Positions 6,662 through 34,788 of a stretch of DNA of 64,000 bases are shown here, in pieces. This DNA comes from an uncultured Pseudomonadota bacterium (GTDB lineage: Bacteria; Myxococcota_A; Bradymonadia; Bradymonadales; Bradymonadaceae). Under the pieces are notes generated by a model. It saw only the letters and a list, made by a program, of their open reading frames with translations, ran no database searches and was not told the DNA's origin. Every line of letters starts with the position of its first letter. Position 1 is the stretch's first letter. Location: assembly GCA_913057905.1 (NCBI GenBank), contig CAJXPB010000001.1, positions 1,178,001 through 1,242,000 of the forward strand, read 5' to 3'. The translations under genes and the position numbers were made by a program.

Positions 6662-8329
6662 CTAACAGGGGTTGTCGCTGCATTGTTGGCCCGGCTTCGG
6701 CGTTCCGAAGGCGGGGCACGATCCAGGGGGCGTGTTAACGCAGTTGTTCAGGATACAACAGGCCTCCCAGTTCGAGGGCGCACAGCTCGCCTGCTGACAC
6801 GTCTGATTGGGCTGCGAGGTTCCGCCGATCGACTGACAATTTGCCGGCGTCACTTCGTTGCATTGGCCGGCAAAGCAGCAGGCCGTCGGCTGCGGTTGCT
6901 GACACTGGATCTGGTTGCACTGGACGCCTGCGTTGAAGCTTCCGTTCAACTGCTGACACTGCTGCTGACTGAGGACCGAACAGTTGCCCTGCACGCAGCA
7001 CGCTCCGTTTGTGGGCCCTCCGCAATTTGCCTGCATACAGGACTGACCCGGATTGAACGTTCCCCCGAGATTCGAACACTGTTGCGCATCGGTCTGCTGA
7101 CAGGAGCTCCCCTGACAGCACGCTCCCATCTGTGGACTGGAACACGTGACGTTGTTGCAGTTCGGAGCCATCTGAGGTTGTCCGCCCTGATTTGTGCAGG
7201 CACTCGGCGACAACGTGGTGCAGGAATCATCCGGCAGGCAGCAGGCCTGAGGGTTGTTGTTGCAGACGACTTCACTGCAGGCCGTATCCTGAAAGAACGA
7301 TCCGTTGCAGTTTGGCTGGGTTGTCTGGGAACAATTGCCATTTTCGCAACAGGCACCGGAAGGCGGGGGGATCGAACACGGGACCTGGCTGCAGGGCGTG
7401 TTGGCGGTAAACTGCCCGCCCACGTTTGTGCACTCCTGTTGGGTGCGCTGCGAACAGTTTCCTTCGACACAGCATGCTCCGGTCACCGGCGGCATCTGAC
7501 ACATCACCCCGTCGCAGGTGTCGCTCTCCTGCGGGTTGCCGCCCTGGAGATTGCAGGCGGTGACTTCCTGAACCTGACAGGTGCCGTCGGGCAGACAACA
7601 CGCCTTGTCGCCGCCCGGCGCACATTCGGCCGCTTCGCAGGATGATTCTGACTGGGGTTCGCCGCCCAGGGATTGACAGTTCGCGGGCGTCAACTCCTGG
7701 CACTGGCCCCCCAGACAACACGCTTGAGTTGGCGGTGGGTCCGTACAACTGATCTCATCGCACTGTTGTCCGGGCCGGGGCGTCCCGCCCAGCTCTTCGC
7801 AGGCCGTGGCTGTCGCCGTCGTACACTGGTCCTCCACGCAGCACGCCTCGGCCGGCGGAGGATCTTCACACGTAACACTCTGGCATGTGGTGGCATCCGG
7901 TTGAGGCGTACCCCCTTGGGCCTCGCAGGTCTCAGGAGGGATCTCCGTGCAATTGCCGTCGAGACAACAGGGTTGGGCCTGCTGTCCGCAGGTGACTTCC
8001 TCACAGGAGGACGCATCCGGACGCGCAGTCCCCTCGCACTGGGAAACTGGCACGGCCTCGACGCACTCGCCCGCATTCGTACAACAGGGCGCGAGGATCT
8101 CGCCGTCGGGCGTATCCGTGCCGTCGGCCGTGTCGGAATCCGTAACCTCCCCGCCATCGACAATCGGCGGGCCGCCCACACACACGCCGGAGACGCATTG
8201 TTCACCGTCGGCACAGTCCGAGTTGTTGGCACAGCGATTCTGCAGGTCTGAACGCCCGCAGCTCACCAACAACAGCAGCCCGCCGACGAGGGCGAGAATG
8301 CTTGGAATTGATCGGTCCGCTCGAATCAT
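6662..8329 (-). CDS. Secreted lipoprotein with twelve six-cysteine repeats
   Basis: A 555-residue predicted lipoprotein: an N-terminal hydrophobic stretch ends in the lipobox LVSC, followed by an Asp-rich linker. After about residue 75 the protein consists of twelve tandem units of about 32-42 residues. Each begins with a Cys pair (ACC, PCC) and continues roughly C-x7-8-C-x-x-x-GG-...-C-x4-C, giving six cysteines per unit. Examples of unit starts are GACCVEGNC and QACCLGGQC. The even, conserved cysteines imply disulfide-stabilised small domains outside the cytoplasm. An ATG preceded by GGTGA is chosen; a GTG three codons upstream is also in frame. It is followed 13 bases later by the RNA-modification-like fusion. 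Function unknown. Confidence 0.85.
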   Translation of the reverse strand: MIRADRSIPSILALVGGLLLLVSCGRSDLQNRCANNSDCADGEQCVSGVCVGGPPIVDGGEVTDSDTADGTDTPDGEILAPCCTNAGECVEAVPVSQCEGTARPDASSCEEVTCGQQAQPCCLDGNCTEIPPETCEAQGGTPQPDATTCQSVTCEDPPPAEACCVEDQCTTATATACEELGGTPRPGQQCDEISCTDPPPTQACCLGGQCQELTPANCQSLGGEPQSESSCEAAECAPGGDKACCLPDGTCQVQEVTACNLQGGNPQESDTCDGVMCQMPPVTGACCVEGNCSQRTQQECTNVGGQFTANTPCSQVPCSIPPPSGACCENGNCSQTTQPNCNGSFFQDTACSEVVCNNNPQACCLPDDSCTTLSPSACTNQGGQPQMAPNCNNVTCSSPQMGACCQGSSCQQTDAQQCSNLGGTFNPGQSCMQANCGGPTNGACCVQGNCSVLSQQQCQQLNGSFNAGVQCNQIQCQQPQPTACCFAGQCNEVTPANCQSIGGTSQPNQTCQQASCAPSNWEACCILNNCVNTPPGSCPAFGTPKPGQQCSDNPC

Positions 8330-8465
8330 GGACGTCACCCGGTAGGCCTAATCGTCTGAATGAGTGCCCCGAATGATGGAGGCACATCTCTTCTCTACGC
8401 GTACCACGGTAATCGGACGCGGCCAGCGGTTCAAATAAACCGTCTCGCCGGGAGAAACCCTGACA

Positions 8466-9140
8466 TCAGCGGCCGCCATGCACGATACCGACGGCGTCCA
8501 AGTCGAAACCCGCCTTGCTCTCGAGGTCTGTCGACTCGGTGAGGTCGGTGATCCGAACGTAGTTGATTCGGTCGAGTCCGAGGTCAGATAGATCGAAGCT
8601 GTTGCCTCCCGTCACCGCTGGATCGAGGGTCGTCGTGGACCCAGCGTCGTAGGCTTTGGTCGGCGTCCACCCGGCGCATCCCGGCCACCGGTACGGGCCG
8701 TCGTCGGGCTCGACCGGCTCGGTGCTGCACTCAAATCGGTGCCAGGTCTCGCCGTCTCGACTCACCGACACGCGACCCAGCTCTTCCCAGACCCCGTCGT
8801 CTTCGAACTCGGTGTAAAAGGCGTTCTCGAAGACGATGAAATCATCGGCCGGTCCATCTGTGATACTGCGGTCCCCGAACCCCAGGACGATAGACCCGCC
8901 GGCGCCAAGACTCAGTACGTTGCTCGTTGCGCCCCCCTCCTGGGTATTCTTGGGTGGTCCGAACACGACATCCGGCAGATCCTCCTGGCCGTGGCCCGCC
9001 CCCTCTCCCGGATCGAACGAGACGAGTTCACTGGCGTACGGAAGCGCCCCCCCCGGGCCGCCCTCCATCGCGTCGCCACACGCCCCCGGGAGCGCAGCGG
9101 CGGCCACGATCCAGAGGCAGATCGACAGTCGAACCCTCAC
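8466..9140 (-). CDS. Lipoprotein of the cell-surface family often found near B12 receptors
   Basis: A 224-residue lipoprotein starting with GTG; the GTG overlaps the upstream TGA (GTGA) and is preceded by GGAGGG, so it is translationally coupled to the preceding lipoprotein. The signal peptide ends in LPGAC. The mature part contains ELVSFDPGEGAGHGQEDLP, VVFGPP, LSLGAGGSIVLGF and DDFIVFENAFY, then RVSVSRDGETWHRF. I associate this order with uncharacterised 'cell surface protein' homologues that often sit beside TonB-dependent cobalamin receptors. Here the two-gene unit lies behind a cobalamin riboswitch, which fits a role in B12 capture at the surface. That role is inference; no ligand-binding residues are known to me. 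Confidence 0.8.
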   Translation of the reverse strand: MRVRLSICLWIVAAAALPGACGDAMEGGPGGALPYASELVSFDPGEGAGHGQEDLPDVVFGPPKNTQEGGATSNVLSLGAGGSIVLGFGDRSITDGPADDFIVFENAFYTEFEDDGVWEELGRVSVSRDGETWHRFECSTEPVEPDDGPYRWPGCAGWTPTKAYDAGSTTTLDPAVTGGNSFDLSDLGLDRINYVRITDLTESTDLESKAGFDLDAVGIVHGGR

Positions 9141-10003
9141 GATCCCTCCACCGGCATCAGGCGAGTCCACGGGCTATCCATCGACCCGCAGCCTCCCATC
9201 TCGGGGTTTGAGGGATCGGCGGTCTTCATGCTGTTGCGGGCCGCCTCCTCGGTGTCCAGGCCGAAGTCGACGGTGCAGTAGTAGGTAAGGCCGCTCTCCT
9301 CCGGTTCGATCCAGACGATCCGATTGTACTTCTCGGGTGAAAACTCGGCGTCCTCCGGGTTCTGAGTGATCGCCCAGTTGTCTTCATTGCTCCAGTCGAC
9401 AATCGACGCGCCGATACCCTGGGTGTTCCAGACCTTCGGGGTGATCTCGAAGACTGGAGTATTGTCGAACTGGTCGTCGTATCGGCCGGTGATCTCGATC
9501 GGTTTGCGCATCTTCGTCCAGGCAAACATCCCGCAGCCCCCCTCGGACGGATTGCTGGCGTCGGCGGTCTTGTCGGTATTGCGCGCAGCCTCGGCCGATT
9601 CAAGCCCGAAGTCGACCGTGCAGTAGTAGAACGGAGGCTCCGGGGCCTGGGTCCAGACGAGCTTCGAGTAGGTCTCGCCGGATTCGCCCATCGTCCTCGT
9701 GATGGCGTAGTCCTGTTCGTTGCTGAACTCGACGATCGTCTGCTGGCCCCAGGAGTCCGAGGTCAGCTCCCGGACGGTACCGAAGTTGGAAATCCAGGTG
9801 CCAGCGACTTCCAGCTCCGATGGCATTCCGCCGTCCTCCATGCCGCCGTCTCCGGCGTCGGTCGCATCGTGACCGATGTCCATCATGCCGGAGTCGACAC
9901 CGGTGTCGGGCACCGGCTGGTCGTCGGCGGGTCCGCACCCGACCGACACAGCGAGAGATACAAATGCGGCGATGGCCGCAATACACACATTCCGAATGTT
10001 CAT
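9137..10003 (-). CDS. Lipoprotein with two tandem ~100-residue repeats, riboswitch-controlled
   Basis: A 288-residue lipoprotein. The chosen ATG follows AAGGAAC at SD spacing and gives a clean signal peptide with lipobox SVGC, then an Asp/Gly/Met-rich linker. The remainder is an internal duplication. Copy one begins EVAGTWISNFG and copy two begins EITGRYDDQFD. Each contains a conserved Trp-rich strand, an ITR/ITQ turn, YYCTVDFGL, then EAARN-x3-TADxSNP and a GGCG turn, with two paired cysteines per copy. It is the first gene after the minus-strand cobalamin riboswitch and overlaps the next lipoprotein gene. A surface or periplasmic B12-related role is inferred from that position alone. Confidence 0.82.
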   Translation of the reverse strand: MNIRNVCIAAIAAFVSLAVSVGCGPADDQPVPDTGVDSGMMDIGHDATDAGDGGMEDGGMPSELEVAGTWISNFGTVRELTSDSWGQQTIVEFSNEQDYAITRTMGESGETYSKLVWTQAPEPPFYYCTVDFGLESAEAARNTDKTADASNPSEGGCGMFAWTKMRKPIEITGRYDDQFDNTPVFEITPKVWNTQGIGASIVDWSNEDNWAITQNPEDAEFSPEKYNRIVWIEPEESGLTYYCTVDFGLDTEEAARNSMKTADPSNPEMGGCGSMDSPWTRLMPVEGS

Positions 10004-10227
10004 CGATGTTCCTTGTTCCACGTTCCGAGATTGGCGAATGATCAATTCGTCATCCCGGACCATGAGGGGGAGAGCGCACAACAGTCCGACATCACGGGCG
10101 CGGCACCCGGACGGGGCCGGCGTGGCACCGAACATGTTTGCACACACGTCCGGCGTCGGTTGTCGTGTTCATCCGCTTCGCCTTCCCTCGAGGCCTAGGA
10201 CGCACCGATCCAGTGGCTCAACCAGTG

Positions 10228-10440
10228 GCTCGGTGTCTGTCGGCAGGTCTTCGGGCTCACGGACGAACGGGCAAAGGCCCGTATTCTCCCTACTTCTTCC
10301 AGCTTCCCGACCCGCCCGGATGTCTCTCCGAGATCAGGGTCAGTGCTCTTTGGAAGGTTCGTTTCCGTTGACCGCTGCGGGGCAGCTCCGGATTCGCACC
10401 GGATTCCCTCTTGCTCCGGGCGTCATTGAACGCCCGGACC
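10228..10440 (-). promoter_or_regulatory. Cobalamin riboswitch upstream of two lipoprotein genes
   Basis: On the minus strand this stretch contains the core of a cobalamin (AdoCbl-type) aptamer in the right order: AGGGAATCCGGTGCGAATCC, GCTGCCCCGCAGCGGT, then further stems, and finally the B12 box AGCCCGAAGACCTGCC at 10242-10257, which matches the family consensus at every constrained position. It sits 225 bases upstream of the first lipoprotein ATG. The 476 bases from 10004 to 10479 contain no gene. No T-tract terminator is visible between aptamer and ATG, so repression would more likely be at translation. Exact 5' and 3' limits are approximate. Confidence 0.9.
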
Positions 10441-10479
10441 GACAGCGCCGCTGACCGTAGTGACCGGAGCGTATGGGCG

Positions 10480-20182: not shown

Positions 20183-21076
20183 TCAGAATTCGAAGGCCTC
20201 GACCGCCTCGAGTTCGATGGCCTCAAAACGGCCGCTGCCCAGATTTCGCAGGGCCCAGAGCTGAAGTGACCCCGAATCAATGCCCCTGATCTCTCCGGCC
20301 AGGCTCGGCTGATCGCTCATGGTTACTGGCGGGATCAGCCAATAGGTCCGGCCGGTATCGTAGGTCATCAACACGCCGTCGGCCCGGGCGAATTCGGTGT
20401 ACCCGCCTCGGGTGATCGCTCCGTAGCCGATCTTGCCCGAGCTCTCAATGCGAAGCCCGATTCGAAACTGATCCATGGCATCGTTTTCGAACCGATCGAT
20501 GCTCTGCCATTCGCCGGCGATCTCTGCGATCTCGACCGCGGCGCCCGCTCGCTCGTATCTCAGCTTGTAGGGCTGCCCGGAGGGTCCCTCTCCGGAGAAG
20601 AGTTCAAATCCCCGGTGGACGCCCTCCTCGAAATCGCCTTCCAGCAGGTACTGGTTCGGCGAATTGGACATTCCATCACGCATCAGGTCGAAGAGCCGGA
20701 CGTCCTCCTCGTCGAAGACCTCCCAGTTGCCGACCATGTCGCCGCGATTGATCTCCACGCGTCCCGACGCGCGAAACTCGACGCGCTGGACGGTCCCAGT
20801 GATTGCCGGCGAGTCGGTCAGCCTGGGGATGCTGTACCAGACGCCGACGACCTCGTCTCGCTGCAAGATACCATCGTCAAAGGTCTCGTCGGCGTCGGTC
20901 GCGTCTCGGACATCGACCGCGTCGGCGGTATCCCGACTACCGTCATCGACCCCCAGGTCCTCGACATCCATACCGCCGTCGAAGTCCCAGTTTGGCCCTC
21001 GCCCCGTGCTCTCCTCGCACGAGGCGAGCCACACGGCACTCATCAACCCCAACAATACCGCCAGCCGAATCTTCAT
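20183..21076 (-). CDS. Asp-rich lipoprotein, unidentified
   Basis: A 297-residue lipoprotein. The signal peptide ends in WLASC and is followed by an Asp-rich linker (DGGMDVEDLGVDDGSRDTAD) of the kind seen in several other lipoproteins here. The folded part begins near residue 75 with VVGVWYSIPR and a second AGEWQSIDRF near 190. This hints at two lipocalin-like or beta-barrel repeats, each starting with a Gly/Ala-x-Trp motif. It is divergent from the methyltransferase gene, with 213 bases between them that presumably hold both promoters. Its stop lies in the palindrome TGAGCCGGCTCA. Function unknown. Confidence 0.8.
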   Translation of the reverse strand: MKIRLAVLLGLMSAVWLASCEESTGRGPNWDFDGGMDVEDLGVDDGSRDTADAVDVRDATDADETFDDGILQRDEVVGVWYSIPRLTDSPAITGTVQRVEFRASGRVEINRGDMVGNWEVFDEEDVRLFDLMRDGMSNSPNQYLLEGDFEEGVHRGFELFSGEGPSGQPYKLRYERAGAAVEIAEIAGEWQSIDRFENDAMDQFRIGLRIESSGKIGYGAITRGGYTEFARADGVLMTYDTGRTYWLIPPVTMSDQPSLAGEIRGIDSGSLQLWALRNLGSGRFEAIELEAVEAFEF

Positions 21077-30559: not shown

Positions 30560-30745
30560 TCTTGCCAACTCTGTGCTCGAATGACACAAGCGATCCTGCA
30601 GTCGGGGAACCCGGTGAGACTCCGGGACGGACGCGCCACTGTATGCAGAACAGACGTAAGCCGGCGACCTTTTCGCCGCGCCACGGCGGTCGACGACCGC
30701 TGGAAGGCACGCTGCAAGTCAGGATATCCGACCGCAGGACAGACG
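30560..30745 (+). promoter_or_regulatory. Cobalamin riboswitch controlling the btuB operon
   Basis: The plus strand carries GGGGAACCCGGTGAGACTCC, GGGACGGACGCGCCACTGTA and, about 70 bases later, the B12 box AAGTCAGGATATCCGACC (30716-30733), the ordered hallmark of a cobalamin aptamer. It ends about 45-55 bases before the GTG start of btuB. No terminator-type T-run separates them, so sequestration of the translation start is the likely output. It fills the 250-base gap between dnaK and btuB. The outer limits are approximate. Confidence 0.93.
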
Positions 30746-30788
30746 AAATTCCGATGGCTCTTCGCGCTCTGAGAGCAACACTATTTCT

Positions 30789-32903
30789 GTGCCACCCCTC
30801 CATTCTGATCCGGGGAAGGCACCGGCCTCGGGTCGACTGACCCGCCTCCTTGGCTTCGCCGGGCCGGCGTGCCTCGTCGTTGCCGTCGGGCTCGGGCTCT
30901 CCTCTCCGCAGCCGACCTTCGCTGCATCGGATACGACGTCGGACGGCGAAAAGACCGAAGATGAAGAGGCCGACCTCCCGACCGTCGAAACTATCGTCCC
31001 TCCACAGCAACAGACCCAAGACCCGCGACATCCGTCCGGCTGGGTGAGCCGTCTGGAGCTCGACGACCTCTTTGGAGACGGCGAGAGTCTCGGTGAGTCG
31101 GTCCGTTCCGTCCCGGGTGTGAACGTCCAGGAGTCGGGCGGCCTCGGACAACCCTCCCGTGCCAGCGTCCGAGGGGGCAATCCGCGCCAGATGCCCGTGT
31201 TGCTCAACGGGGTCGACATCGGAGCCCCCTCCGGTCGCGGATTTGACATCGGCACACTCTCCACAGTCGGATTCGACCATCTCGACATCTACCGCGGGAG
31301 TGCCGCGTCGATCCATGGGTCGGGCGCGTTGACCGGGGCCATGAACCTGGAGATCGCCCCCCCCGACGATCCCGGCACATCGGTCTATGCTCAGAGCCTG
31401 GCCGGCAGCTACGACGTGTGGGGCCTCGGCGCCGGAGCGAGCGTCGTCCACGAGGGCGGAGGATTCGAGTTCGATGCGTCGTGGCGAACCGGCGACGGCA
31501 ACTACCCGTTCGTCGACGACCAGGGAAGCTCGCGGATCCGTGTCAACAACGACCATCGGCAGATCGCTCTGGTCGGGACCGGGGAAGCGGGCCTGTCGGG
31601 ACAGTCCCCAGAGGAACACGGCATCGATGCCACGATGATGTATGCCTCGAGTCGACGGGGCACCCCCGGCCCCAGCGAGTTTCAGGCGGCTTTCTCGGAG
31701 GCCCGTACAGAGACGGAACACCTCGCCTTCGTCGGCGGCTGGCAACAGCGAAGTATCGCATCCGGCCCCCGTGGACTGCTCGACCTCGAGGCGGACCTCG
31801 GACTGACCCGACGCTCCCTCGAATACTCCAACCCACAGCCGTTCATCGGGGAAGAGCCGATCCGAAACACCACGGATCACTGGGCGGCTGACGCCTCGAT
31901 CACGGCCAAGGGCTTCATCGAGTCCGGCCACATCGTCCACGCGTCGGTCGGCGCTCGAGTGGGGCGATACGTGGCAGACTACCGGGGGGGAACCGACTCC
32001 ACGCTCGAGGCCACGCGGTTTACGGCGTCTGTCGGCCTCTCGGAGGAGTGGCTGCTCTTCGACGACAAACTTAGCCTCATCGCAGGCCTTCGGGCCGAAT
32101 TCGTCGATGGGCGCCAGCGCGTCTATGTCCCGTGGATTCCCTCGGGCGGCCTCATCTGGCGGGCGCTCGACTGGCTCAGACTCAAGACCAACATCGCCAG
32201 GACGCATCGCGTGCCGGATTTCGATGAACTCTACCTCCGAACCGAAACCATCCGGGGGAATCCATCGTTGAATCCGGAGCGCGCCCTGCAGGTCGACGGG
32301 GGAGTCGAGGTGGGAACCGATCAGTGGCCGGTCACCGGTTCGGTCACCGGGTTTCACAGCGACATCCGGCAATCGATCCTCTTTTTGCCCGAGACCGCCT
32401 ATCTGTACCGGGCCACCAACCTCTCCGGGGCGCGAAGCACCGGGGTTGAATCGACACTGCGCGCAGAACCGACTCGATGGCTGCGAGCCCGAGGAAACTA
32501 CACCTTTACCGACGCGCATCTGGACGCCACTCCGGACGTTCAACTTCCGCACCGACCGCGCCATCAAGGCTCGGGGCGTCTGTCGGTGCACCTGGCGAAG
32601 CTCCCCGCCCTGTCGGACTGGAACAATCTGCGTGCGCTGACACTGACCGCCTCCGGCTGGGGTCGCAGTCAGGTGCAACTCGACAACTTCGGCAACTTGA
32701 GCAACCGACCCTACTGGCAAGTCGACCTGGGGGTTGAGGTACAACCACTCCCCTGGTTGAGCGCCTCCCTGAGGTTCCAGAACATCACCGACAACCGCTG
32801 GGGCGCCGATTCCCTGCAGCGTCCCCTGCCGGGCCGTTCCCTCTACGGCTCCATTCGGATTTTCCACGATTCCGCCGCCTCAAAAGAAAAGACGACGCAA
32901 TGA
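30789..32903 (+). CDS. btuB: TonB-dependent vitamin B12 receptor BtuB
   Basis: A 704-residue outer-membrane transporter starting with GTG; no nearby ATG gives a signal peptide. A hydrophobic leader (LVVAVGLGLSS) precedes an acidic stretch with VETIVPPQ, a possible TonB box region. The plug follows (VRSVPGVNVQESGGLG, ASVRGGNPRQMPVLLNGVDI, LTGAMNLEI), then a 22-strand-type barrel with IARTHRVPDFDELYLR, GNPSLNPERALQVDGGVE and a terminal aromatic strand GRSLYGSIRIF. The cobalamin riboswitch directly upstream and the adenosyltransferase downstream define the substrate as a cobamide. The stop overlaps the next gene by ATGA. Uptake across the inner membrane (BtuFCD) is not encoded in this window. 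Confidence 0.92.
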   Translation: MPPLHSDPGKAPASGRLTRLLGFAGPACLVVAVGLGLSSPQPTFAASDTTSDGEKTEDEEADLPTVETIVPPQQQTQDPRHPSGWVSRLELDDLFGDGESLGESVRSVPGVNVQESGGLGQPSRASVRGGNPRQMPVLLNGVDIGAPSGRGFDIGTLSTVGFDHLDIYRGSAASIHGSGALTGAMNLEIAPPDDPGTSVYAQSLAGSYDVWGLGAGASVVHEGGGFEFDASWRTGDGNYPFVDDQGSSRIRVNNDHRQIALVGTGEAGLSGQSPEEHGIDATMMYASSRRGTPGPSEFQAAFSEARTETEHLAFVGGWQQRSIASGPRGLLDLEADLGLTRRSLEYSNPQPFIGEEPIRNTTDHWAADASITAKGFIESGHIVHASVGARVGRYVADYRGGTDSTLEATRFTASVGLSEEWLLFDDKLSLIAGLRAEFVDGRQRVYVPWIPSGGLIWRALDWLRLKTNIARTHRVPDFDELYLRTETIRGNPSLNPERALQVDGGVEVGTDQWPVTGSVTGFHSDIRQSILFLPETAYLYRATNLSGARSTGVESTLRAEPTRWLRARGNYTFTDAHLDATPDVQLPHRPRHQGSGRLSVHLAKLPALSDWNNLRALTLTASGWGRSQVQLDNFGNLSNRPYWQVDLGVEVQPLPWLSASLRFQNITDNRWGADSLQRPLPGRSLYGSIRIFHDSAASKEKTTQ

Positions 32904-34114
32904 ATAGGACCTGTCGACAATGCACGCCGGGATGGACACGGATGCTCCTGCTGGCCTGCGTCGGAGCCCTCTGGCTCGCAGCCTGTGGGGAGCCCATGGC
33001 GTCGGCTCGGACATTCGACGGAAGTCCCCCAATCTGTCAGGAAGGCTCGGACTTTCCCTCCGGACGGGTCGACCCCGATTTCCAGACCATCGGCCCCACG
33101 AGCAACGCCGTTCGGCGCAGCGACGACGCACTCTGGATCGTCGAGAGCGGCTCGAACACCGTGTCGCGATTCGACCTTCAAAAACAGAAGCTCCAGCGCG
33201 GCTTCATCGATGTCGGCGAGGGTCGAAACCCCTACGACATCGCCGTCGACTCATCGGCTCACAGGGCCTACATCACAAACTGGCTGTCGAGTACGGTCTC
33301 GGTCGCCGACACCGAGACGGGTCGGGTCATCGATGAACTCTCGTTCGAGACCTTCGACTTTCCGCAAGGCATCGAGGTCACCGAAGACTTCCTCTACGTC
33401 ACGAACGTCCACTTTCGCGGAGGGGACGATGCATCGGCGTTTGAACCCGGGACGGTCACGATCATCGACCGGGCCGACCATACGGTCCTCCGAACCGTTG
33501 AGACCGAGTTCAAAAACCCACAGTTCGTGCGGGCTATCGAGTCTCCCGACGGGCCGCGATTGGCCATCGTCAGTTCGGGGGTTATCACGCGTTCGGCCGA
33601 CCTCGCCTCCGATGGCGGACTCGAACTCTGGAAGCCGTATCGATCCGGCGAATCCGTCGACCGAACGACACATCCCCTGCCAGTCGAGAGCGATGCATCC
33701 GGGCAACCTCGAATCGGCGCCCCCGGCCGACCGCTGCCAGCACCCGACGGTTCGCACCTTTACTTCACAAGTGCGACGGCTCCGGTGGTCTTCAAGTTCG
33801 ACCTGCAATCCGATACGTGGAACCGTGGCACGCAGAATCCCATCGAACTCTACGAGAGCCGGGCCGATACGCTCCACCATGGTGCCTTCGGGCCCGAAGG
33901 CCTGCTTTGGGTGACGGCCTTCAATCGCGACAGCCTCTACGTTATCGATCCGGCCTGTGATGGCGTACTCGCCGATTCGATTCCGCTGGACGCAACCGAC
34001 GCTCTCCTCGAAGGTCCGCACGGCATTCAAGTGGCCCGCACTGGCGAAACCCGTTATGCGTACTACATTATGAGCAGGGCGAATGCGCTGGGCCGATTGC
34101 AACTTGATCCATAA
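32900..34114 (+). CDS. Beta-propeller lipoprotein, BtuG-like candidate B12-binding surface protein
   Basis: A 404-residue lipoprotein with lipobox LAAC. It consists of YncE-type propeller repeats: WIVESGSNTVSRFDLQ, NPYDIAVDSSAHRAYITNW, NTVS/STVSVADTETGRV, then HLYFTSATAPVVFKFDL and LWVTAFNRDSLYVIDP near the C-terminus. It overlaps btuB by ATGA and is therefore made with it. In Bacteroidetes BtuG is a lipid-anchored seven-bladed propeller of similar size that binds B12 tightly on top of BtuB. Gene order, anchor, fold and regulation match, so I infer an analogous role here. Sequence similarity to BtuG itself has not been tested. Confidence 0.82.
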   Translation: MNRTCRQCTPGWTRMLLLACVGALWLAACGEPMASARTFDGSPPICQEGSDFPSGRVDPDFQTIGPTSNAVRRSDDALWIVESGSNTVSRFDLQKQKLQRGFIDVGEGRNPYDIAVDSSAHRAYITNWLSSTVSVADTETGRVIDELSFETFDFPQGIEVTEDFLYVTNVHFRGGDDASAFEPGTVTIIDRADHTVLRTVETEFKNPQFVRAIESPDGPRLAIVSSGVITRSADLASDGGLELWKPYRSGESVDRTTHPLPVESDASGQPRIGAPGRPLPAPDGSHLYFTSATAPVVFKFDLQSDTWNRGTQNPIELYESRADTLHHGAFGPEGLLWVTAFNRDSLYVIDPACDGVLADSIPLDATDALLEGPHGIQVARTGETRYAYYIMSRANALGRLQLDP

Positions 34115-34137: not shown

Positions 34138-34788
34138 ATGTCAGACAAGGAATTCAAAGACCCGGAACTCGCTATCAATCGCGTATACACGCGCCGTGGC
34201 GACGAAGGTTCGACTCAGTTGACCGGTGGTCAGACCGTCAAGAAGTCGGAGCCGCGCATCGCCGCGTACGGCACCGTCGACGAACTCAACAGCCTCATCG
34301 GCTCTGCCCGCCAGGTCATCATCGACGACTACGCCCACGATGTCGGCTTCCAGAACCTCGCCAACACCCTGCTGCACGTGCAGCACGAGCTCTTCAACCT
34401 GGGAAGTGTATTGGCGACTCTGCCCGAGGACGTCGGCGAGCAGATGCCGCGCATCACTCCTGAAGATATCGAGGAGCTCGAAGCGAGCATCGACGAATAC
34501 AACGAGGAACTGCCAGAGCTGCGCTCCTTCGTGCTTCCGGGAGGCAGTCGCCTGAACGTCGAACTTCACAAGGCCCGTACGGTCTGTCGGCGCGCCGAAC
34601 GATGCGTGGTGGCACTCGCCGAGAGCGGCGGCGAAGTCAATCCCGACGCAAAGACCTACCTCAACCGTCTCAGTGATGCTCTGTTTGTTTGGAGTCGCTG
34701 GGTCGTCGTCGTCCACGACCACAACGAAGAGGTCCTCTGGGACCCGAACGTCTCCTCGGACGATCCCGACGGCTCGAACGCCGGCTGA
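34138..34788 (+). CDS. pduO: ATP:cob(I)alamin adenosyltransferase, PduO type
   Basis: A 216-residue cytoplasmic enzyme that transfers the adenosyl group of ATP to cob(I)alamin, making AdoCbl. The N-terminal TRRGDEGSTQLTGGQTV is the ATP-binding signature, followed by RIAAYGTVDELNSLIGSAR. The C-terminal catalytic block contains FVLPGGSRLNVELHKARTVC, RRAERCVVAL and LNRLSDALFVWSRWVV. The length fits the PduO/MMAB family (about 180-230). It lies 23 bases after the propeller lipoprotein gene in the riboswitch-controlled operon and would supply the cofactor for the ribonucleotide reductase and aminomutase suggested elsewhere in the window. Confidence 0.94.
   Translation: MSDKEFKDPELAINRVYTRRGDEGSTQLTGGQTVKKSEPRIAAYGTVDELNSLIGSARQVIIDDYAHDVGFQNLANTLLHVQHELFNLGSVLATLPEDVGEQMPRITPEDIEELEASIDEYNEELPELRSFVLPGGSRLNVELHKARTVCRRAERCVVALAESGGEVNPDAKTYLNRLSDALFVWSRWVVVVHDHNEEVLWDPNVSSDDPDGSNAG

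Follow-up and report, generated by a model that had tools for sequence, protein, structure and literature searches.

A cobalamin riboswitch-linked lipoprotein pair with a remote BtuH relative as its second member

The window analyzed here, a stretch of 64,000 nucleotides, contains a complete cobalamin riboswitch followed by two overlapping genes for putative lipoproteins, P0001 and P0002. P0002 is a remote relative of the B12-binding protein BtuH of Bacteroides thetaiotaomicron, as judged from sequence profiles and predicted fold, and the genomic link of both protein families to B12 genes is conserved. The pair is read, with considerable confidence, as a system for surface capture of cobamides which would feed BtuB, and thus as a novel form of the Btu lipoprotein system known from Bacteroides.

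The riboswitch aptamer is situated at 10225..10458 on the minus strand. The cmscan match to RF00174 is full-length (model positions 1-189) and reaches 106.2 bits (E=1.4e-25) compared with a gathering score of 31.5, in agreement with the complete minus-strand aptamer proposed earlier in a sequence-only reading of this DNA. That reading had also described a perfect B12 box. The box is present as the stretch AGCCCGAAGACCTGCC, but it differs by one base from the strict consensus, and the word 'perfect' is slightly too strong. A leader of about 220 bases (10004..10224, minus strand) connects the aptamer with the start of P0001 and carries an AAGGA ribosome site at 10010-10014. Terminator scans and folding of this leader revealed no intrinsic terminator and no unusual fold, and no anti-ribosome-site hairpin or convincing expression platform stood out in the same scans and folds; the sole terminator-like site was found by the terminator scan within the coding sequence of P0001. 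Repression of the pair by cobalamin through this riboswitch is presumed by analogy.

P0001 (9137..10003, minus strand) is translated from an ATG as a protein of 288 residues and P0002 (8466..9140, minus strand) from a GTG as a protein of 224 residues. The stop codon of the first and the start codon of the second overlap in GTGA at 9137..9140 of the minus strand, and lipobox-like signals were observed at both N-termini (..SVGC23 in P0001, ..PGAC21 in P0002), just as the sequence-only reading had described two coupled lipoprotein genes behind the aptamer. Both proteins resemble families named after adjacent Leptospira genes. P0002 matched NF033170 (LIC_13355 family lipoprotein; E=4.5e-9) with 35.9 bits, below the curated cut-off of 120, and P0001 matched NF047669 (LIC13354 family exoprotein; E=7.6e-6) with 26.3 bits, below the curated cut-off of 130. 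Each is, judged by these scores, part of a related, wider family and not a member of the NCBIfam family itself. The relation extends to their homologues, as NF033170 is matched by all 54 members of the P0002 family (best E=3.3e-20) and NF047669 by 25 of 28 domains of the P0001 family (best E=2.9e-13). NF033170 found no match in the control genomes, Bacteroides among them, and the P0002 family has no Pfam model.

The predicted structure of P0002 contains a BtuH-like beta-sandwich domain (8472..9041, minus strand; AlphaFold pLDDT 91.4). In a Foldseek search of the model against PDB, chain B of 8BLW was the sole match below 0.001 (E=2.6e-6, probability 1.00). The superposition is loose, with a TM of 0.54 by query length, an rmsd of 13.7 and 17% identity. 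CBM32 domains rank behind 8BLW among the matches, and discoidin-like folds are also neighbours of this domain. A search of PDB (177,635) with a broadened profile of the P0002 family (A7) gave 8BLW_B (3.9e-6) and 7BIZ_A (0.0045) as the top two matches, while a narrow profile (A5) retrieved only 7BIZ at 0.55 and the single sequence of P0002 retrieved no match. The match of the broadened profile in 8BLW spans residues 387-497. 8BLW is BtuG1 of B. thetaiotaomicron, which is prolonged at its C-terminus by a fused BtuH part of some 250 residues (PMC10404256), and the matched part is therefore placed in the H domain. The analogy with BtuH-type surface binders drawn earlier can thus be sharpened for P0002, where profile and fold comparison together show remote homology to BtuH. 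Identification of P0002 as a DUF4465/BtuJ protein was also considered and rejected, as none of the 54 family members matched DUF4465 and this family was absent from the 50 best fold matches.

Residues which contact B12 in BtuH2 are Gln333, Asn399, Phe401, His476, Tyr510, Trp511 and Trp577, among which Asn399 reaches the B12 phosphate and Phe401 the lower ligand (PMC8941943). The numbering of 7BIZ was fixed by the condition that positions 333, 399 and 401 carry Q, N and F, which a single offset satisfies. According to the alignments and this residue-number check, Asn399 and Phe401 align with N106 and F108 in the N106-A-F108 motif of P0002 (8817..8825, minus strand). The asparagine is kept in 54 of 54 close and 48 of 48 broader family members, and the phenylalanine in 54 of 54 and 44 of 48, respectively. 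Gln333 has no clear counterpart in P0002, and His476, Tyr510, Trp511 and Trp577 are situated beyond the aligned part. The conservation of N106 and F108 in these alignments could have structural reasons instead of B12 contact.

The sequence-only reading had suggested a survey of whether homologues follow cobalamin riboswitches in other genomes. Within the same family, P0001 and P0002 are adjacent in 14 relatives, and a cobalamin riboswitch precedes the pair in all 13 genomes in which the contig continues for a sufficient distance on the upstream side. The cultured relative Lujinxingia vulgaris TMQ2 (L064) has this operon as well. A scan of the collection with the P0002 family provided 80 loci, selected by protein similarity alone with riboswitches disregarded; they belong mainly to Myxococcota and Deltaproteobacteria, along with Planctomycetota, a Bdellovibrionales bacterium and CSSED10-310. 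A covariance model trained in part on sequences of these same loci detected riboswitches in 59 of the 80. As a guard against circularity, Rfam's own model was applied, by which 28 of 30 positive loci passed the cut-off and none of 10 negative loci turned positive. An upstream cobalamin riboswitch on the same strand was found in 58/80 loci, while about 0.4 riboswitches would be expected by chance in the 842 kb searched (from 2 per 4.25 Mb). This result favours the idea of B12 capture, and homologues consistently separated from riboswitches or B12 genes, which would have spoken against it, were not what the survey returned, as many loci also contain BtuB or propeller genes. The remaining 22 loci showed no upstream riboswitch in the stretch read, some of them due to a contig end. 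For nineteen loci, no B12 sign was registered in the stretch read; no fewer than four of them (L063, L085, L094 and L129) break off at the gene start or close to it, and one more (L104) possesses a riboswitch according to Rfam. Sampling of 144 genomes of the phylum yielded 94 P0002 homologues, of which at least 46 are preceded by a cobalamin riboswitch at a distance of up to 6 kb. More distant P0001- and P0002-like domains exist with no riboswitch nearby.

On the same strand, BtuB-like genes accompany 21 of the 80 loci and propeller genes 15. The gene orders observed include riboswitch-P0001-P0002, riboswitch-P0002-BtuB and riboswitch-BtuB-propeller-P0002, and in one locus (L125) riboswitch-BtuB-propeller-P0002-P0001. 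P0001 and P0002 domains share a single reading frame in four loci (L173:818-2587, L175:1265-2977, L177:412-2472 and L202:4225-5475), all with a cobalamin riboswitch close by. Another locus possesses two divergent cobalamin riboswitches (L109:5375-5758); a P0001-like gene follows one of them, and P0002-BtuB follows the other. As the same content recurs in varied gene orders, we argue that the link is selected and not merely inherited. A propeller and a P0002-type domain are joined in one protein, similar to BtuGH, at L207:1140-2963 and L208:2404-4857; no cobalamin riboswitch was detected in these two genomes. Some P0002-like proteins behind cobalamin riboswitches (L031:1309-2190 and several of L181-L196) are apparently PEP-CTERM tagged instead of lipidated. 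In L036, L037, L041, L045 and their relatives, tRNA genes and a small SRP RNA are positioned just upstream of the pair, a conserved neighbourhood which is absent from the window in the stretch read.

The genome of the window has two RF00174 matches in total, and both are in the window. The second riboswitch (30582..30750, plus strand; cmscan 43.8 bits) is followed on the plus strand by a TonB-dependent receptor (30789..32903; PF00593, PF07715), which is a probable BtuB partner in trans and is paralleled by the BtuB-like genes in P0002 operons of other genomes. Next to it are a YVTN beta-propeller lipoprotein (32900..34114; TIGR02276), the counterpart of BtuG by position, and a PduO-type cobalamin adenosyltransferase (34138..34788; PF01923 E=3e-58, TIGR00636). 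An assignment of the propeller to BtuG itself was not confirmed; a surface-layer propeller, and not BtuG, is its closest relative in PDB. The genome encodes the B12-dependent methionine synthase MetH and several B12-binding domains, and no CobQ/CbiP (cobyric acid synthase) was found above cut-off in the assembly, which is 93% complete. Since MetH is present and CobQ/CbiP was not found, the genome probably imports cobamides.

By analogy with the Bacteroides system, P0001 and P0002 are expected to be exposed on the cell surface, to bind cobamides and to hand them over. When cobamides are scarce, the riboswitch would permit expression of the two outer-membrane lipoproteins. P0002, as a BtuH-type beta-sandwich, would bind extracellular cobamides through the nucleotide loop and the corrin ring and deliver them to the BtuB-type TonB receptor of the other riboswitch locus, possibly through the propeller lipoprotein beside that receptor. 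P0001 would act as a partner module in which a new, probably disulfide-bearing beta domain is present in one to three copies; it would likely contribute to binding or serve for docking.

A membership of the pair in the cobalamin regulon with no cobamide binding of its own is the alternative which survives best, and we regard it as unlikely. The two proteins would then serve as structural lids or docking proteins for a complex of BtuB and propeller, or their target would be a cobamide carrier or cell debris and not the free vitamin. Operons shared with BtuB and propeller genes suit this explanation. F5/8-type C-like sandwiches commonly bind glycans, and the CBM32 domains behind 8BLW in the Foldseek ranking are in line with such a role. 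There is also a precedent in BtuL and BtuK2 of B. thetaiotaomicron, lipoproteins of riboswitch operons which did not bind B12 (PMC12751083). Against this explanation, the closest solved relative of P0002 by two methods is a B12-binding BtuH domain, and the asparagine aligned with the phosphate contact is invariant.

A second alternative concerns the division of labour, in which P0001 would be the main cobamide binder and P0002 a mere scaffold. P0001 is composed of two tandem domains at about residues 64-165 (9509..9814, minus strand) and 169-282 (9158..9499, minus strand; AlphaFold model pLDDT 92.6), as delimited by repeat comparison. The two repeats share 43% identity over 114 residues (pairwise E=5e-26), so the tandem duplication of about 100 residues seen in the sequence-only reading is real for this protein but is not general among its relatives; most close relatives possess one copy while others possess two or three. 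The suggestion of that reading that the duplication is consistent with two binding sites is conjectural, given that P0001 has no solved relative. A tryptophan and two cysteines are invariant in the family. Such variation between one and three copies, the invariant Trp and Cys residues and the separate riboswitch over the P0001-like gene in L109 would all suit a binder. P0001, however, has no solved relative and no known binding residues. Its model gave no credible match among solved folds, a single-sequence search of PDB found no match, and the matches of its profile in PDB were discarded as antibody noise. Many riboswitch loci also possess P0002 with no P0001. P0001-like loci in the 80-locus set have a riboswitch in 18 of 20 cases, the remaining two being cut at the contig start, whereas no riboswitch was seen, in the stretch read, at distant P0001-like proteins which come from other families of the class and have no P0002 in the vicinity. 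We hold P0001 as main binder to be slightly less probable still than a pair which does not bind.

The earlier description of the pair as lipoproteins with no known function was only partly right, as both have relatives in NCBIfam families and one Leptospira relative has published binding activities. LIC13354 and LIC13355 correspond to LA_4202 and LA_4203 (PMC5348505), which a comparative study places in the cob II cluster, where they adjoin cobT, cobS and cobC; the study adds that two genes of the cluster may or may not act in B12 biosynthesis (PMC4758666). They are co-induced 3.8- and 3.7-fold in host-adapted cells (PMC3953431), and a published study describes binding of LIC_13355 to laminin, plasminogen and endothelial cells (PMC11891782). 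The Leptospira genes are similar to the window pair in being related, adjacent, in the same order and beside cobTSC; they differ in that the window proteins fall under the NCBIfam cut-offs, that no riboswitch is reported for the Leptospira pair in published work on these genes, and that LIC_13355 was studied as an adhesin. That the window proteins are surface adhesins or glycan binders with an incidental riboswitch link, as the activities of LIC_13355 and the discoidin-like fold neighbours of P0002 might hint, is very improbable in view of a riboswitch linkage far above chance in dozens of genomes, which represent several classes and phyla and differ in their gene order, and of the position of the Leptospira pair beside cobTSC. 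A bolder extension is offered only tentatively and may well go too far. It holds that P0001 and a BtuH-type protein form an obligate pair across Myxococcota and Spirochaetota, with P0001 as a new class of extracellular cobamide-binding domain in one to three tandem copies and LIC_13355 with its neighbour as a B12 capture pair.

Compared with BtuH of B. thetaiotaomicron (BtuH2/BT1956, 7BIZ; H domain of BtuG1/BtuGH, 8BLW), P0002 is alike in being a lipoprotein of cobalamin riboswitch loci with a predicted B12-binding sandwich domain, aligned Asn and Phe contacts and companion BtuB and propeller genes, and BtuGH has its parallel in the fusions of L207 and L208. It differs by very low identity, by the occurrence of its family in other phyla, by several contact residues which are not alignable and, in the window protein, by the lack of PKD domains; a P0001 partner is not described in Bacteroides loci. 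BtuG propellers share the functional setting, with the YVTN propeller lipoprotein following the BtuB-type gene of the second riboswitch locus, although neither P0001 nor P0002 is a propeller. BtuJ/DUF4465 proteins (9FCT, 9I2L, 9HMU), from which the search results separate P0002, are likewise lipoproteins with an extracytoplasmic beta-sandwich which are encoded in B12 loci, and they are known from beyond Bacteroidetes too.

The published description of BtuH presents a protein of gut Bacteroidetes and a B12-binding domain for which no structural homologues were known (PMC8941943). In the open-licence PMC literature searched, BtuH with cobalamin refers in all cases to Bacteroides or to the separate DUF4465 family. 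Because DUF4465 proteins already capture B12 outside Bacteroidetes (PMC13398666), such capture is a known kind of system; within the same literature, neither the occurrence of the BtuH lineage in these phyla nor the P0001 partner seems to have been described before. The BtuH family appears here as a riboswitch-controlled module which is widespread in Myxococcota and other Deltaproteobacteria and extends beyond them, in company with a structurally uncharacterised second partner, and two large families of hypothetical lipoproteins gain a testable function. The relationship points to a part in B12 acquisition for a surface protein of Leptospira which has been investigated as an adhesin and, together with DUF4465, supports the view that dedicated extracellular B12 capture is common well beyond the gut.

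Two further lipoproteins were observed on the minus strand of the window. A cysteine-rich repeat lipoprotein of 558 residues (6662-8338), with no Pfam or NCBIfam match, adjoins the pair, and another lipoprotein at 20183-21076 shows a weak lipocalin-like (GH43_C) match.
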